Assembly: GCA_025357055.1 (NCBI GenBank)
Contig: JANXPZ010000011.1
Coordinates: forward strand, 1 to 35,185
Source of the DNA: Candidatus Eiseniibacteriota bacterium
GTDB lineage: Bacteria > Eisenbacteria > RBG-16-71-46
DNA: 35,185 nucleotides
Direction: 5' to 3'
A program made the position numbers and the translations under genes. Numbering within the stretch: the stretch's first letter is position 1; each line of letters starts with the position of its first letter. Shown piece after piece: positions 28,318 to 35,185 of this stretch. The notes under the pieces were generated by a model, which saw nothing but the letters and a program-made list of their open reading frames with translations, was not told the DNA's origin and searched no databases.

Positions 28318-30522
28318 CTACTGGAGCCCCCCGGTGACCGGGGTGGCCGGGGTGGCCCGGGCCCGCCGGCCACGGGCGCCGGGCCCCACTTCGATGGCCC
28401 GGCGCAGGCCGGCGAGCGCGGCGCCCAGCAGGGTGATGAGCGCGCCCACCCAGACCAGGTTGACGAGCGGCTTGGTGCTGAACTCCAGCACCGCCTGGCT
28501 CGCCGATCCGGCGCCCGGGAGCAGGACACCCGCGCGCTTGCCATCCACGTCGATGCGCCCCAGGGAGACCTGCCCGAGGCCGGTGGCGACGACCGTCAGC
28601 GGCCGGGTCCCCTCCGCGTCGGCGCTCATGCCCGGCGAGATCCGTTCGGTCGACCGGCCCCGGCTCACGTCGATGTCGGCGAACACCTGCATGGCCTCGT
28701 GGGACTCCATCCGGAACGCCACGAAGGTCCAGGTCGCCCCACCCGCCGGCACCGGCTGCCCCTGCGGCAGCCACACGAGGTCGTCCGATGCGCCCTCGGA
28801 CCGCCTCACGTCCACGGGCGACAGGTAGAGCTCGCGCCGGCCGCTGATGGCGGGCTTGTGCATGCTGCCCTCGCCCTGCGGCATCTTCAGCAGCTGCGGG
28901 TGCGCCTCGAAGCTCCAGCCCTTCCGGGCCACGAGCACGTCGAGCTCGTGGCCACCACGCGCATCGAAGCGGTCCCCGCGATACGTGAGCGTGTACCCGA
29001 GGGCCTGCCCCGACTCGCCCGTCTTCAGCGTCAGGCGTTCGGTGCGTCCCAGCGCCGTGGACATCACCATCCCGAGGATCATGACGGCGAGCCCCGCGTG
29101 CCCGAGATAGCCGGCACCGTAGCTCCAGCCACGGCGGAAGAGCTTCACGGTCATCCACGCGTTGATGCCGAGGGCGAACCCGGTCGTGGCGATGAGCGCC
29201 AGGTGCGAGCCCTCCTTCACCCCCGTGAAGAGCGCGCCGGCGAACGCCAGCAGGGCGCAGACGAACCCCGGCGTGAGGGCCGTGAGCCAGCCGAGGCCCG
29301 CCTGCCGCGACCAGCGCAGCGCGGGGGCGACAGCCATGACCACCACCAGCAGGATGCCGAGCGGCACGCTCACCGAGTGGTAGAAGGACGGGCGCACGCT
29401 CGCGGGCTTGCCCGCCAGGGAGGTGAGGAGCGGGGCGATCGTGCCGAAGGTCACCATGGCCGCGAAGATGAGCACCGTGACGAGCCCGACCCACAGTGCG
29501 GCCTCACGCGAGAGGCTGGTCCAGCGGGTGGGCTTCGACTCGATCGAGCGCCAGCGCCAGGCCAGCAGCGCGGCCACGCCCAGCGACGTGCCGGCCAGGT
29601 TGAGCACCAGCGGGGCGTTGAGGCCCATGTCGGCGAAGGAGTGGACCGAGAAATCCTGCAGCACGCCGCTGCGGGTCAGGTAGGTCCCGCCGAGCACGGT
29701 GAGCCATCCCAGGAGCGCCATGAGCAGGTTGCTGCGCACCAGCCCGCCGGTCGTCTTCTGGATGAAGAGGCCATGCAACAGCGCGACCGCGACGAGCCAG
29801 GGCACGAGCGAGGCGTTCTCGACGGGGTCCCAGCCCCAGTAACCGCCCCAGCCCAGCACCTTGTAGGCCCAGATGCCGCCGAGGGCGATGCCGGTCCCGA
29901 GCGTGAGCACGGCGAGCAGCACCCAGGGCCAGACCGCACGATTCCACTCGCGCCACTGGCCGAGCGCCAGCGCAGCACCCGCCAGGGCGAAGGGCGCCAC
30001 CATCGCTGCATAGCCCGCGAAGAGCACCGGTGGATGGATGACCATCCAGGGATCCTCGAGCAGCGGGTTCAGGCCCTGCCCGTCCGCCGGCGTGACGGGG
30101 CTCGGGCGGAAGGGACTGCGCATCAGGAGCAGCACGAGCAGACCGAACTGGGCGAGCGTGACGAAGAACATCGCGGGGCGGGAGAGCGGCCCCGGCTGAC
30201 GCATCAGGGCGAGGCCCACCAGCGCCATGAGCAGCGCCCAGAGCAGGATGCTGCCTTCCTGTCCGGCCCAGGAGGCGGCGAAGGTGAGCGCGGGCGAGAG
30301 GGCCCGGGAGCTGTACTCGGCGACGTAGCTGTACTCGAAGTGGTGCCCGAGGAAGAGCGCCCAGAGTGTGCCCACCGCCCCCAGCAGCGCTGCCGAATGC
30401 AGGCCGAACAGCCACTCGGCGGCGGCAGGCCCCCTGCGGCCCCGCAACTCCTGGAAGAAGAAGACGGCCGCCGGGATCGCAGCCAGGAAGGCGAGCTTCA
30501 GCAGCAGGTCACCGAAATTCAT
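28318..30522 (-). CDS. ccmF: Cytochrome c-type biogenesis protein CcmF (haem lyase subunit)
   Basis: A 734-residue protein with about 15 transmembrane segments. It acts in system I cytochrome c maturation, where CcmF/CcmH join haem to apocytochrome CXXCH motifs in the periplasm. The haem-handling WWD motif is GWGGYWGWDPVENASLVPWL (224-243). HPPVLFAGY (163-171) holds one of the conserved haem-ligand histidines. GTYLTRSGVL and SVHSFAD follow, as in the family. The C-terminal 230 residues are a periplasmic beta-rich domain ending in a last helix. ATG 30522 has GGGGAA before it; an in-frame GTG/ATG upstream adds only MARRSFPGNL and was not used. The multihaem cytochrome genes lie divergently next door. 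Confidence 0.95.
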   Translation of the reverse strand: MNFGDLLLKLAFLAAIPAAVFFFQELRGRRGPAAAEWLFGLHSAALLGAVGTLWALFLGHHFEYSYVAEYSSRALSPALTFAASWAGQEGSILLWALLMALVGLALMRQPGPLSRPAMFFVTLAQFGLLVLLLMRSPFRPSPVTPADGQGLNPLLEDPWMVIHPPVLFAGYAAMVAPFALAGAALALGQWREWNRAVWPWVLLAVLTLGTGIALGGIWAYKVLGWGGYWGWDPVENASLVPWLVAVALLHGLFIQKTTGGLVRSNLLMALLGWLTVLGGTYLTRSGVLQDFSVHSFADMGLNAPLVLNLAGTSLGVAALLAWRWRSIESKPTRWTSLSREAALWVGLVTVLIFAAMVTFGTIAPLLTSLAGKPASVRPSFYHSVSVPLGILLVVVMAVAPALRWSRQAGLGWLTALTPGFVCALLAFAGALFTGVKEGSHLALIATTGFALGINAWMTVKLFRRGWSYGAGYLGHAGLAVMILGMVMSTALGRTERLTLKTGESGQALGYTLTYRGDRFDARGGHELDVLVARKGWSFEAHPQLLKMPQGEGSMHKPAISGRRELYLSPVDVRRSEGASDDLVWLPQGQPVPAGGATWTFVAFRMESHEAMQVFADIDVSRGRSTERISPGMSADAEGTRPLTVVATGLGQVSLGRIDVDGKRAGVLLPGAGSASQAVLEFSTKPLVNLVWVGALITLLGAALAGLRRAIEVGPGARGRRARATPATPVTGGLQ

Positions 30523-30856
30523 GAGGTTCCCCGGGAATGAACGGCGCGCCATTGTAAGCCAGGGCGGCCAGTTTGCGTTCCAGTTTGAAACATAGAATGA
30601 CGGTCAGGATGATCCCGTTGCGGGATAGGAGCTTCATTGGATTGCCAAAACCGGAATCCGGACCAGACGATCATCCCGATCACCCCGCCCGGGCTCGCGT
30701 CGGGGAATCCGGCAGGTACTTGTCGAATGGTACTTTAGGACACCTTATCCGGGAGATGATGCGACTTTCGCATACGTAGTTTCACTTAGACATTGATTTC
30801 ACAATACCGTATCATGAAACCCGTCTCAAGAAGTTTGGGCCCTGGGTCGAGGTGCT

Positions 30857-30897
30857 GGGCGGCCGAACGAAGCCGTTCGCTTACGAGAAGCCCGCCC
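30857..30897 (+). ncRNA. Nested stem-loop in the cytochrome leader
   Basis: GGGCGG (30857-30862) pairs with CCGCCC (30892-30897). Inside it, CGAACG (30864-30869) pairs with CGTTCG (30874-30879) around loop AAGC. It might be part of a riboswitch or an operator; I could not fit it to a known riboswitch family. Confidence 0.4.
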
Positions 30898-30980
30898 GCG
30901 AACTGAAGCCCCGGGGAACTTCACGTGATTCACGCGCGGCCCTGCGAACCAGTCGCCGGACGCGCACCAGAGCTCCACTC

Positions 30981-31045
30981 TCGGGTTCGAAAGGGGGGCA
31001 ACACAACTCGCTCGTTCCTTCAGCCTTCTGGAGAATCGAACCCGA
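30981..31045 (+). ncRNA. Ten-pair inverted repeat closing a 45-base loop before the cytochrome gene
   Basis: TCGGGTTCGA (30981-30990) and TCGAACCCGA (31036-31045) are exact reverse complements. The right arm ends 31 bases before the cytochrome ATG, leaving the ribosome-binding site free. It would form a long-range stem in the mRNA or a spaced operator pair in the DNA. Confidence 0.5.
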
Positions 31046-31076
31046 AGTCTCGCTCCACACCAAGAGGAGAGATCAC

Positions 31077-32150
31077 ATGAAGCGCCTGTTGCTCCCCCTC
31101 GTCGTCCTGTCCCTCGCCGGCCTCACGGCCGTGGCGATGGCGGGCGACTATCACGTCGGCCAGTTGCTGGTCTGCAGCGACTGCCACGTGATGCACGGCA
31201 GCCAGTCGCACGCCTACCCCGAGACCAGCGAGCTGAATCAGCCGGGCGCCGGGGCACCGTTCGCCAAGCTGCTGCGCCAGTCGTCGGTCAACTCGCTGTG
31301 CCTCTCGTGTCACGATGGACGGACGGACGTCCCCGACGTGCTCGGCGCCACCACGGCTGCCCCGACGAACGGCCGCCTCGCCGGCGCGCTGAACGTCGAG
31401 TCGGGCCACGGCTTCACGAACGACGCCGGATACGTGGTCGGCGACGGCCACACGCTGTGGTCGACGGCCACCCCGCCGGGCTTCACCGGTGCGACCTCGC
31501 CGGTGAGCGTCGGCGGTCTCGCCTGCTCGGACTGCCACTCCGCTCACGGCGCGGCGAACTACCGCAACATGAAGAGCAGCACGCGCAGCACCAGCGCCTT
31601 CTACAACCGGTTCGTCAGCTACGAGATCGGCGGGACGCCGACCAACACGAAGGACGTCTACGAGGCGGCAGCTCGCGGCTACGGCTGGAACAACGTCAAC
31701 TACCAGGAGCCGGACCAGACCAAGAGCGCGTACGGCGCATGGTGCCAGGCCTGCCACACGACGTTCCACGGTGCACCGGCGGACGCCAACATCGGGCCCG
31801 CGGGCAACGAGATCCGTCACCCGACGGCCGGTGTGGACCTCAGCGCCAGCAACAACACGCAGCTCAACCTGCACACTCACAAGGTCAAGCTGATGGACGG
31901 GCTGGGCAAGTGGGACGGGACGACCGCCACCACGACCCCGTCGTGCTTCACCTGCCACAAGTCGCACGGCAACAAGAACGGCTTCGGGCTGGTCTGGTTC
32001 GTGGACAACACCACGACCGGTCCCAGCACGCCCGCGACCCCGACCGAAATCACCGAAGAAGGCGATGGCGGTGCGTATCGCGACCTGTGCCGTCAGTGCC
32101 ACACGCAGGGGAGCTTCCCGGCGGGCAATCCAGTCGCCATCATCCCCTGA
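31077..32150 (+). CDS. Secreted six-haem c-type cytochrome
   Basis: A 357-residue exported protein. ATG 31077 has GAGGAG 8 bases upstream and gives the signal peptide MKRLLLPLVVLSLAGLTAVA, then MAG. Six CXXCH haem-attachment sites are visible: CSDCH, CLSCH, CSDCH, CQACH, CFTCH and CRQCH. Several have the doubled-CXXCH spacing (C..CH...HG) typical of this family. Additional histidines (HVMHGSQSH, HTHK) could be second axial ligands. Such proteins carry electrons in the periplasm or at the cell surface. It heads an operon with a second multihaem protein and an outer-membrane barrel, and is divergent from ccmF. The upstream open frame to 30852 lacks a signal and is leader. Confidence 0.93.
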   Translation: MKRLLLPLVVLSLAGLTAVAMAGDYHVGQLLVCSDCHVMHGSQSHAYPETSELNQPGAGAPFAKLLRQSSVNSLCLSCHDGRTDVPDVLGATTAAPTNGRLAGALNVESGHGFTNDAGYVVGDGHTLWSTATPPGFTGATSPVSVGGLACSDCHSAHGAANYRNMKSSTRSTSAFYNRFVSYEIGGTPTNTKDVYEAAARGYGWNNVNYQEPDQTKSAYGAWCQACHTTFHGAPADANIGPAGNEIRHPTAGVDLSASNNTQLNLHTHKVKLMDGLGKWDGTTATTTPSCFTCHKSHGNKNGFGLVWFVDNTTTGPSTPATPTEITEEGDGGAYRDLCRQCHTQGSFPAGNPVAIIP

Positions 32151-32172
32151 GCCTCGATTCATCTGGTACGTT

Positions 32173-32203
32173 CCGGCCGGCCCCGAATCCCGGGGCCGGC
32201 CGG
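32173..32203 (+). terminator. Strong hairpin after the six-haem cytochrome gene
   Basis: CCGGCCGGCCCCG and CGGGGCCGGCCGG form a perfect 13-pair stem with a 5-base loop, 23 bases past the stop codon. No T-tract follows. It may attenuate transcription or protect the upstream message, giving more of the first cytochrome than of the genes after it. Confidence 0.55.
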
Positions 32204-32294
32204 ATGTCCTTGAGCAAACTGGAATCCACCATCATCAGGCCGTGGACGGGCGGGCAGCGTGAGGTTTTCGCCGTGCTGGGCTAGTCTGGACCGC

Positions 32295-33698
32295 ATGCGA
32301 CCGAGGAATCCCGTTTCGAGGCTCGCGGCACTCGTGTTCCTGTGCCTGCTGGTGATGGGAGCGCAGCCGCTCCACCCCTATCGCACCCCCGCCGGTGTCG
32401 AGAAACTCCTTGCGCAGGGAGCGCACGCGGGCGATTGCGACCAGTGCCACACGGTCCACGGCCAGGGGGACATCGTCTACGGCCACGCCCTGCTCGGGCC
32501 GGACGACAACTCGCTCTGCGACCGCTGCCACGACACGCCCTGGGCCGGCGGCAGCTACGCGGGCCCCTGGTTGTACTCCGGCGGCGCCCATGGCACCGCG
32601 GTCGGCACGGCCTGGCCGGGGCCCTCCCCGCCTCCCCGCACCGAACCGGGCGCCGAGGGCAAGTGCCTGAACTGCCACGATCCGCATGGCTGGTCGGACG
32701 CCGGCGGCCTGGTGCCCGCACTCGCCATCGGGCGCGAGGAGACGCTCTGCCTCACCTGCCACGACGGGGCGCCGGCGTCCACGAACATCGGCGCCGACCT
32801 CTCCAAGGTCTACCGCCACCCGGTGCGACTCTACAGCGGGCGCCACAAGGGACCGGCTGAATCCGACCCGGCCGATTTCGGAGTGACTGCGGGGACCTCG
32901 CGACACTCCGAGTGTGTCGACTGTCACGATCCGCACGTGGCCAGCCCCGACCGGCCCACGACACCGCCCGCGCCCGGCCTCTCAAGGGTGAACCTGGGTG
33001 TCAGCCGGGTGCTGGTCCAGAATGGCGCCGCGGGCACCCCGCCGACGTTCACCTTCGCGGCGGGATCCGACACGTTGAGCGCACCGAGGACCGAATACCA
33101 GCTGTGTTTCAAGTGCCACTCCTCCTGGACGACTCAGCCCTCGGGTCAGACGGACCTGGCGCTCGTGCTGAACCCGGACAACGAGTCCTATCACCCCGTC
33201 GAGGCCGTGGGGCGCAACCCGGCGATCCTGGCCGGCGCGTTCGTGCCCGGCTGGAGCGCCGCCAGCCTGACCCGCTGCGGCGATTGCCACGGCAGCGATT
33301 TCGCGGGGGCGGCGCGGGGGCCGCATGGCTCCGCGTACCGTTATCTCCTGAAGCAGCCCTATACCGCTTCCGCGGCGAGCCGGACGATGAGCTCCGGCGA
33401 GGCCTGCTTCGCCTGCCACTCCTACGAGGTCTACGCGAACTCGAGCGCCGATGATGCGACGAGGGCCTACTCGCGCTTCAACAAGCCCGGGGTGGACAAG
33501 GGCCACGCCGAGCACGTCAGCGAGAAGAACGTCCCCTGCTACGCGTGCCACGTGACGCACGGCTCGCCCGACCAGCGCCATCTCATCGCCACGGGGCGCA
33601 ACCCGGGCATCACCTCCTACACCGAGACGGCCAGCGGCGGCACCTGCTCTCCGACGTGTCACGGCACCGAGTCGTACACGATCAACTATGCTCGATGA
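32295..33698 (+). CDS. Secreted ten-haem c-type cytochrome
   Basis: A 467-residue exported protein. ATG 32295 gives a signal peptide MRPRNPVSRLAALVFLCLLV, then MGAQ; a start 36 bases upstream would add only a short lead. Nine CXXCH sites are seen (CDQCH, CDRCH, CLNCH, CLTCH, CVDCH, CFKCH, CGDCH, CFACH and CYACH). A tenth site near the C-terminus has an extra residue, CSPTCH, a CX3CH form known in some multihaem cytochromes. The haem-binding clusters are spaced by aromatic and His-rich stretches. It probably passes electrons toward the outer membrane. Its stop overlaps the start of the barrel gene (ATGATG), showing tight coupling. Confidence 0.92.
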   Translation: MRPRNPVSRLAALVFLCLLVMGAQPLHPYRTPAGVEKLLAQGAHAGDCDQCHTVHGQGDIVYGHALLGPDDNSLCDRCHDTPWAGGSYAGPWLYSGGAHGTAVGTAWPGPSPPPRTEPGAEGKCLNCHDPHGWSDAGGLVPALAIGREETLCLTCHDGAPASTNIGADLSKVYRHPVRLYSGRHKGPAESDPADFGVTAGTSRHSECVDCHDPHVASPDRPTTPPAPGLSRVNLGVSRVLVQNGAAGTPPTFTFAAGSDTLSAPRTEYQLCFKCHSSWTTQPSGQTDLALVLNPDNESYHPVEAVGRNPAILAGAFVPGWSAASLTRCGDCHGSDFAGAARGPHGSAYRYLLKQPYTASAASRTMSSGEACFACHSYEVYANSSADDATRAYSRFNKPGVDKGHAEHVSEKNVPCYACHVTHGSPDQRHLIATGRNPGITSYTETASGGTCSPTCHGTESYTINYAR

Positions 33699-35185
33699 TG
33701 CGGTGGAGCGCGCGGGGTGCGGGACTGGTGGCGGCAGGGATGGCAGCCCTCCTGATGGCCGGGCCCGCTGACGCCCAGCAGAAGATCCGGGGAGTCGCCG
33801 AGGTGCAATACTCGAAGCTCAGCATGCTCAACCCGGCCAATGACGTGGAGTGGTGGCTCACCTCCGTGCAACTCGACTACTCCACGCGCTTCCGCAAGGT
33901 CTACGAGTTCGCTTCGCAACTGCAGTTCAGCGAACAGAAGTACATCGGCCGACCGGACCGTCAGCGCCTCCCGCTGGGGTCCCTGCGCCTCGCTCATCCG
34001 CTCTTCGGGCTCTACGGCTCGTACCGTCCGATCCAGGTCACCGATTCGCGCAATGTCACGACCAGCCAGCAGGAGTTGAACCTGACGGGCTACTTCCAGC
34101 AGGCCCGGCTCCCGCGACTCTCCGCCGCCTGGAACCGGCGCAACCAGGACGCGAGCGGCCGCATTCCCGGCACCGTGGCGGTGAGGCGCAGCCTGACGGC
34201 CAATTACGATCTGGGACGGCTGAACCTTCACGCCGGCTACGCGGACCTGGCCAACGAGAACCGGGTCACCGGGGGACAGCACCGGGACGAGAACAACCTC
34301 AACGCCGGCAGCAGCGTCCGTTTCGACGGACGGCGCGCGAACACGGTGCTCCAGTACGACTACAACCAGTCGCACCGGCGGGTCGACGGGGGCCGTGACG
34401 CGACCTCGCGCATCCACAGCGCGTCGGCGAACGGGGGCGTGGAGTTCTCGGCGCGAACCTCCGCCAACCTGTCCTACAGCTTCCGCAACGTGGCCACCAC
34501 GCAGTTCTCCACCACCTCCCAGGTGGATCACGACGGCACGCTCAGCCTGATCCATCGCCCCTTTCGGACCGTGCAGTTGTCCGGCGGCGCGGGGGTGCGA
34601 AGCGTCAGCGTCGCGGGCCTTCAGGAGACGGAGAGCTTCGTGATGACCTCGGCCTCGGCCGAAGGCGATGCCCGGCCGGGCTGGAAGTTGGGAGCGGGAG
34701 CCAGTCAGTCGTGGAACTGGCTGCCCGGAGACCGCGCCCGCCCGGTCCAGAGCGTCCGCTCGAACACCCGCATGCGCCTCGCCACCGGTCTCGAGGCCAT
34801 CGGTGAGGCCTCGCTCTCGCGGACGAATCGTGCCGCGGCGCGCACGGACACGATCAGCTCGGCGAACCAGGTGACGGTCCAGGCTGCCGCCGGCCTGCGG
34901 GCGGTGCCACTCCGCTCGATCACCCTCAACGCCAACCTGCGCCGCTACCGCACGGGTGCGACGTTGCGGGGCGGCGGACCGACCTCGATCACCTACACCA
35001 CGAGCCTGGACTGGAGGGCCTCGGACAAGCTGCAGATGAACGGCAGCTGGGGCCACGCCGGAGGCTTCATCCGGAACGCCCCGGACCGCTCGACGTTCCA
35101 GGCCAGCGTGCAGTGGACACCCTCGCGCTCGTTCCAGACCAGCGGGACCTACACCCGCGCGAACCAGCAACTGCGCGACCCCGGC
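33695..35185 (+). CDS. Outer-membrane beta-barrel protein, 3' end outside the window
   Basis: The frame is open from ATG 33695 (or 33698) to the last base, giving at least 497 residues. A signal peptide is clear (GLVAAGMAALLMAGPADA, then QQKIRG). The rest alternates polar and aromatic residues in strand-length units, with many Arg, Asn, Tyr and Ser, e.g. NTVLQYDYNQSHRR, TSANLSYSFRNV, ITLNANLRRYRTG, SITYTTSLDW and FQTSGTYTRAN. This is the pattern of a large transmembrane barrel. It overlaps the stop of the ten-haem cytochrome, as expected of a porin-cytochrome conduit, where the barrel sheathes the haem chain. No exact family can be named from what is visible. Confidence 0.8.
   Translation, partial: MMRWSARGAGLVAAGMAALLMAGPADAQQKIRGVAEVQYSKLSMLNPANDVEWWLTSVQLDYSTRFRKVYEFASQLQFSEQKYIGRPDRQRLPLGSLRLAHPLFGLYGSYRPIQVTDSRNVTTSQQELNLTGYFQQARLPRLSAAWNRRNQDASGRIPGTVAVRRSLTANYDLGRLNLHAGYADLANENRVTGGQHRDENNLNAGSSVRFDGRRANTVLQYDYNQSHRRVDGGRDATSRIHSASANGGVEFSARTSANLSYSFRNVATTQFSTTSQVDHDGTLSLIHRPFRTVQLSGGAGVRSVSVAGLQETESFVMTSASAEGDARPGWKLGAGASQSWNWLPGDRARPVQSVRSNTRMRLATGLEAIGEASLSRTNRAAARTDTISSANQVTVQAAAGLRAVPLRSITLNANLRRYRTGATLRGGGPTSITYTTSLDWRASDKLQMNGSWGHAGGFIRNAPDRSTFQASVQWTPSRSFQTSGTYTRANQQLRDPG

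Follow-up and report, generated by a model that had tools for sequence, protein, structure and literature searches.

The way in which cells build and anchor cytochrome nanowires and supply them with electrons is regarded as an open question (PMC12307469). In OmcS filaments, some haem is reported to be shared between subunits, and the rise is given as 47 angstrom per six-haem subunit (PMC12954529). In Geobacter, the eight-gene block GSU2500-GSU2493 behind the hexahaem gene GSU2501 has been linked to OmcS maturation and secretion (PMC12977616). Within this operon, termed osc (omcS companion), OscH is described as a folding factor, OscE, OscF and OscG as needed for OmcS secretion and OscD as affecting morphology, and GSU2495 and GSU2494 are named OscI and OscJ (PMC13194489). 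Among the systems that carry electrons across the outer membrane, PCC3 of neutrophilic iron oxidizers includes a protein of 21-27 haems that is considered capable of spanning the periplasm (PMC10734462), and a porin-multihaem cluster of Verrucomicrobia may be related, by its description (PMC5615132). Here we analyze three forward-strand genes, for a hexahaem cytochrome, a decahaem cytochrome and an outer-membrane beta-barrel, at the end of a contig from the uncultured phylum Candidatus Eisenbacteria, and compare them with these systems.

The window, that is, the whole stretch of DNA analyzed, is one entire contig of 35,185 bases (G000:C6) from a 3.3 Mb genome, G000, that is 96.8% complete. We read the locus as a variant of known systems in which an osc-like locus for an OmcS-type nanowire is combined with an Mtr-like conduit, and the window as holding only the first part of it, the first three genes of an Eisenbacteria extracellular-electron-transfer operon. 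We put the probability of this reading at roughly two in three.

The first gene (31077..32150, forward strand) encodes a secreted hexahaem cytochrome of 357 amino acids with a signal peptide (signal peptides of the window proteins were assessed by eye) and six CxxCH motifs, a number far above chance, given a maximum of one in 2000 shuffles, the test applied to both cytochromes. A profile of 11 Eisenbacteria hexahaem proteins matched OmcS (6ef8) in the PDB with an E-value of 2e-7, and up to an E-value of 1 it matched no further cytochrome; with a profile of 17 family members, drawn from contigs labelled as five phyla, OmcS was matched at 3.8e-14. Twelve histidines, six inside the haem motifs and six outside, are invariant in all 17 members, which would be the number required for two histidines per haem. 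Eleven of these 12 columns hold histidine in OmcS as well, including His16, which we take to be the ligand given to the haem of the neighbouring subunit (the haem-binding assignments of the OmcS histidines are likewise assumed here); the twelfth, in an RHP motif, aligns to a tyrosine in OmcS, which has an RHP motif nearby. In a local control of 3142 reading frames, the proteins scoring next after the family itself, at 42-76 bits, were mainly five- and six-haem proteins encoded beside 26- and 16-haem genes, together with Geotalea OmcS homologues. The hexahaem protein is thus OmcS-like by sequence, and instead of being a general-purpose cytochrome of a conduit it may be the building block of a filament.

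The second gene (32295..33698, forward strand) encodes a secreted decahaem cytochrome of 467 amino acids, with nine CxxCH motifs (at most one in the shuffles), a CxxxCH motif near the C-terminus and the terminal residues YAR. An earlier reading of the window, made from its letters without database searches (the sequence-only reading), had described two secreted cytochromes with six and ten haem sites, and this description stands. The decahaem protein shares 54-63% identity with 10 relatives, all of which end in YAR, and yielded nothing meaningful among solved structures (best E-value 0.025). Of 47 genomes of the class that were searched with its profile, 12, G000 included, gave strong matches (E-values below 1e-220) and four more gave weak ones only; several near-complete genomes of the same family showed no match, so the system is accessory. 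A contig scan with the decahaem alignment, in which the best 80 of 151 loci were kept, placed members of the family in other phyla, in several loci within the same kind of cluster. The conduit is therefore not simply specific to this lineage, as had been suggested that it could be, although its close form is patchily distributed within Eisenbacteria. Relatives were found, in particular, in Thiobacillus, Gallionellaceae and Sulfurimicrobium genomes. In two Deltaproteobacteria loci (L048, 6320-11290; L049, 6545-11398), a region of this family is contained in proteins of about 1600 amino acids with 34 CxxCH and seven longer motifs. In the Geobacter-type genomes of L093 and L106, the decahaem relative is an eight-haem (7+1) protein encoded behind NHL and tetrahaem genes, and the next genes, as far as the protein starts indicate, resemble type II secretion or type IV pilus components.

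The third gene (33695..>35185, forward strand) encodes an outer-membrane beta-barrel with a signal peptide. Its start codon overlaps the decahaem stop (ATGA, four bases), as had been noticed from the letters; the overlap is 11 bases in eight of the nine relatives measured, and in L038 the two genes are 3 bases apart and the barrel gene is perhaps 5'-incomplete. The 3' end is cut by the contig end, leaving at least 497 amino acids and nothing readable beyond. Full-length relatives have 545-574 amino acids (one probably 5'-incomplete copy has 520), so the window gene lacks only its last part. A first contig scan with the barrel as query found no relative; a barrel search gave matches in 11 of 39 genomes, G000 included. 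The barrel sequence matched nothing in the PDB and nothing above cut-off in Pfam and NCBIfam, MtrB-type models included. A full-length orthologue, from L031, was modelled from ten sequences with a mean predicted local distance difference test score (pLDDT) of 86.5, and the model has 28 strands, starting at residue 32, and no plug. Its top match among solved structures was chain B of 6r2q, which we take to be MtrB, both with Foldseek (1.5e-12; the second match, a TonB-type transporter, reached 4.5e-9) and with VIA-align (Z 19.7 over 443 residues, root-mean-square deviation 7.4; next Z 17.6). The 6r2q record is titled 'Structure of the Mtr complex'. Because resemblance is common among large barrels, the match supports, and does not prove, an Mtr-like role for a barrel that is MtrB-like in its predicted fold. 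TonB-dependent receptors carry a plug domain at the N-terminus and have about 22 strands. A TonB receptor, which would have contradicted the proposal of a conduit, is accordingly ruled out by the 28 plugless strands of the model.

The same operon was sought in related genomes, as had been proposed, and the order NHL, hexahaem, decahaem, barrel, lipoprotein, lipoprotein is kept in 11 of 11 relatives that carry the decahaem gene (in G033 it is divided between two contigs). The hexahaem gene is preceded by a gene for an NHL beta-propeller, and the barrel gene is followed by two genes for LpoB-like lipoproteins, then by one for a small protein without Pfam match (10 of 11 relatives, where the contig reaches). 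The operon is closed by a gene for a multihaem cytochrome that is complete in eight of the 11 relatives and always has exactly 42 CxxCH motifs; only its start is present on the operon contigs of G020 and G011, and the G019 contig stops earlier. The 42-haem gene of G020 is split over two contigs (L018, L032, G020:C183), as expected if its repeats break assemblies.

The 42-haem protein is, by sequence, MtrA-like and equivalent to the Geotalea-type 26- and 16-haem proteins placed end to end. The 26-haem protein of Geotalea sp. SG265 aligns to positions 13-656 of the 42-haem profile and the 16-haem protein to positions 666-1043, in gene order; in seven measured 42-haem proteins, haem 26 is found at 640-675 and haem 27 at 663-697. 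A single-piece alignment of this kind is also given by the 26-haem proteins of L071, L076, L126 and L066; for the 26-haem proteins of L063 and L084, and for 16-haem proteins of the Nitrospirae type, the alignment falls into several pieces, as repeats allow. The sole PDB match of the profile below 1e-10 was chain A of 6r2q (E-value 8.6e-23), which we assume to be MtrA; oddly, the molecule name given in the match is cystathionine beta-synthase. The barrel by its fold and the 42-haem protein by its sequence thus both point to the same solved complex. The search for MtrAB profiles that the sequence-only reading had called for gave a divided answer: the 42-haem protein of one relative scored 468.5 bits, summed over repeats, against the DmsE/MtrA model TIGR03508 (cut-off 192.2), whereas the decahaem protein reached just 36.6 bits and was rejected as an MtrA. 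Since the operon in relatives runs into the MtrA-like gene, the usual partner of the barrel could be the 42-haem protein rather than the decahaem one. OmcS has about 8 angstrom per haem, so 42 haems, if packed alike, would extend over some 330 angstrom, enough to cross the periplasm.

Comparison with osc was made on Geotalea sp. SG265, whose cluster comprises a hexahaem gene, two propeller-type genes, a barrel-like gene, two genes for LpoB-like lipoproteins, a SurA-like peptidyl-prolyl isomerase (PPIase), 26-haem and 16-haem genes and an NHL gene; the putative barrel, of 742 amino acids, was assigned from its position and C-terminus. From gene order and lettering, transferred from Geotalea rather than read in G. 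sulfurreducens, OscH would be the PPIase, OscI and OscJ the 26- and 16-haem proteins, and OscE, OscF and OscG the barrel and lipoproteins. The Geobacter and Geotalea clusters share with the Eisenbacteria operon an OmcS-like hexahaem protein, a beta-propeller gene, a barrel followed by LpoB-like lipoproteins, and 26- and 16-haem cytochromes. In Eisenbacteria, however, the latter two are fused into one 42-haem gene, and a decahaem gene is inserted between the hexahaem and barrel genes; the barrels differ in sequence, and the window has no NHL gene. The osc gene set is found in the relatives, with the 26- and 16-haem genes fused, and G000 shows only its hexahaem and barrel genes. Because the PPIase is missing and the decahaem gene added, we call the locus osc-like rather than osc. 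An osc-like cluster that holds a decahaem-family member was also observed in L063, L066, L071, L076 and L084, labelled Nitrospirae, Thermodesulfovibrio or Deferribacteres, where lipoprotein genes accompany 26-haem, 15-16-haem, 5-6-haem and 9-haem genes.

With MtrCAB of Shewanella (6r2q), the locus shares a large barrel that lacks a plug and whose predicted fold is matched best by MtrB and, in relatives, an MtrA-family cytochrome. It differs in that the MtrA-like protein has 42 haems, not 10, the barrel has 28 predicted strands and no match to the Pfam MtrB-type models, and an OmcS-like hexahaem protein stands in place of MtrC. Since the decahaem protein fails the MtrA model and the barrel resembles MtrB only in fold, we do not file the locus as MtrCAB. 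The closest analogue in idea, as far as the descriptions go, is PCC3, with its porin, very long multihaem protein and extracellular multihaem cytochrome (PMC10734462, PMC5566968); the haem numbers here are 42, 10 and 6. Uet (undecahaem electron transfer) of Tenderiales and Gallionella is similar by description in that a barrel, NHL proteins and several multihaem cytochromes are clustered, but its cytochromes are an undecahaem, a tetrahaem and trihaem proteins, and it includes a PPIase (PMC10734462).

If the proposed reading is correct, menaquinol would be oxidized by inner-membrane complexes and the electrons would enter the 42-haem protein, which could cross the periplasm to meet, and perhaps enter, the MtrB-like barrel. 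The decahaem protein would join the barrel to the filament, and the OmcS-like hexahaem protein would polymerize outside the cell into a haem wire, with LpoB-like lipoproteins helping to place or export parts and CcmF attaching haem. The operon would then bring together a compact set of parts, namely the subunit of the filament, a cytochrome acting as adaptor, the Mtr-like barrel, a pair of lipoproteins and a wire of 42 haems, and the locus would point to OmcS-type nanowires in Candidatus Eisenbacteria. That the 26- and 16-haem proteins are fused suggests that they act together as a single rod, and the resemblances to MtrA and MtrB allow the base of a nanowire to be modelled in concrete terms that can be tested. 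As a tentative extension, somewhat less probable than an even chance, the operon could encode an unbroken haem path, from the inner membrane along the 42-haem wire through the barrel and the decahaem protein to the base of the OmcS-like filament; the Geobacter osc operon would then be a split version, its barrel a nanowire base and more than a secretion aid.

Several results weigh against the nanowire and conduit reading. The window hexahaem protein, used as a single query, matched nothing in the PDB, and the margin of its profile is modest, because in the control an unrelated 13-haem protein reached 42.5 bits, within the 42-60 bits of the Geotalea OmcS homologues. Its AlphaFold model was too poor to be used (pLDDT 40.8). 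The barrel profile showed no significant similarity to the osc-type barrels of Geotalea and Nitrospirae or to other barrels, and the slot of the PPIase (OscH) is filled in Eisenbacteria by the small Pfam-less protein. In G000, the 42-haem protein gave nothing beyond two weak matches, of which one was the window decahaem protein, and neither lipoprotein A nor the small protein was found, lipoprotein B not having been searched for there. The searches for lipoprotein A, the small protein and the 42-haem protein (one of two) did have positives in relatives. The 42-haem, lipoprotein A and small-protein genes are thus inferred for the window, an assembly gap being the likeliest cause of their absence and gene loss the alternative. 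Finally, the role of the Geobacter OmcS filaments themselves is described as disputed (PMC11077965).

Of the competing explanations, the one that survives best, though we consider it unlikely, is that the barrel serves as the channel through which the hexahaem protein is secreted and not as an electron conduit. By position it corresponds to the osc-cluster barrel, since in Eisenbacteria as in Geotalea the next two genes encode LpoB-like lipoproteins, and OscE, OscF and OscG have been given a role in secretion (PMC13194489), OscE being equated with the barrel from gene order and lettering. This explanation has to contend with the top structural match, which is to an electron conduit, with the presence of decahaem and MtrA-like genes in the same operon and with the lack of detectable sequence similarity to the Geotalea barrel. 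The two roles could also coexist.

Genes for inner-membrane partners that might supply electrons were seen beside the operon in relatives and elsewhere in G000. In G013 (L023, 14659-18001), the 42-haem gene is directly followed by a gene for a CbcL-like protein, in which a 13-haem cytochrome and a b561 domain are fused, and then by Rieske and cytochrome b genes, a possible quinol-to-wire link; in G016 (L022), a 13-haem gene likewise follows the 42-haem gene. In G000, one contig (G000:C160, L139, 4345-11987) encodes Rieske and cytochrome b proteins, 9-haem, NapC-type 18-haem and 8-haem cytochromes and an NrfD protein, and another (G000:C215, L140, 3473-9411) a CbcL-like 13-haem-b561 fusion, whose gene diverges from that of a 19-haem cytochrome matching b561 weakly.

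Electrons might instead flow inward, with Fe(II), minerals or partner cells as their source, which is the direction put forward for PCC3 and Uet of iron oxidizers. We regard this as less probable again than a pure secretion channel: the part lists of PCC3 and Uet, as described, are similar (PMC10734462), and relatives of the decahaem protein occur in the Thiobacillus, Gallionellaceae and Sulfurimicrobium genomes mentioned above, whereas the CbcL-like protein after the 42-haem gene of G013 and the Rieske/cytochrome b cluster of G000 argue for the opposite direction. CbcL of Geobacter is a menaquinol oxidase, which fits electron export.

A plain porin-cytochrome conduit, in which the decahaem protein would sit in the barrel as MtrA does in MtrB and the hexahaem protein would be a monomeric surface reductase with no filament, appears improbable to us. 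It is essentially the design put forward by the sequence-only reading, of which the 28-strand plugless barrel with MtrB as top match has held, while the OmcS-like character of the hexahaem protein and the continuation of the operon to a 42-haem protein have not borne out the rest. The MtrB-like fold and the overlap of the decahaem and barrel genes are consistent with such a conduit, as is a weak similarity of the hexahaem protein to the MtrC/MtrF domain PF22113 (25.9 bits, below the cut-off of 30). By contrast, OmcS is the one solved cytochrome that the hexahaem profile matches, the downstream genes of relatives are osc-like, and it is the 42-haem protein, not the decahaem one, that passes the MtrA/DmsE model.

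That the locus joins unrelated parts, a nutrient receptor beside periplasmic respiratory cytochromes such as a nitrite reductase, is very improbable: generic haem-motif similarity and weak NrfH/NrfB-type matches are all that favour it, and against it stand the plugless MtrB-like fold, the operon order kept in every decahaem-carrying relative and the NCBIfam and Pfam searches, in which no nitrite-reductase or other reductase model exceeded its cut-off for the hexahaem or decahaem protein, as the initial proposal of a conduit had implied.

Next to the operon, and divergent from it as the sequence-only reading had correctly noted, lies a gene for a CcmF-family haem lyase of cytochrome c maturation (28318..30552, reverse strand, 744 amino acids), assigned by Pfam models above cut-off (PF01578, 106.5 bits; PF16327, 76.4 bits); against the NCBIfam nrfE/ccmF model TIGR00353 it scored 249 bits, under the cut-off of 569. 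CcmF adjoins the operon only in the window and in three of the 11 relatives and is therefore adjacent to the operon without belonging to its core. A candidate alternative haem lyase with weak CcmF similarity (1e-18 to 1e-24) is encoded beside the operon in all four genus g2 genomes; the three of these tested had no Pfam match. Just 3' of the hexahaem stop there is a stem-loop with a 14-bp perfect stem (approximately 32165..32210, forward strand, fold z -3.83). A comparable excess is seen in six of 10 loci by fold z and in five of 10 by perfect stem, the others being weak, and the role we propose for it is for this reason only a suggestion: it would suit a hexahaem subunit needed in excess over the products of the downstream genes. 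The interval between the CcmF and hexahaem genes is 524 bases long, without an NHL gene, and contains a promoter-like hexamer pair, TAGACA-17-TATCAT (30787..30815, forward strand), which matches the consensus at 10 of 12 positions, the match being its sole basis.

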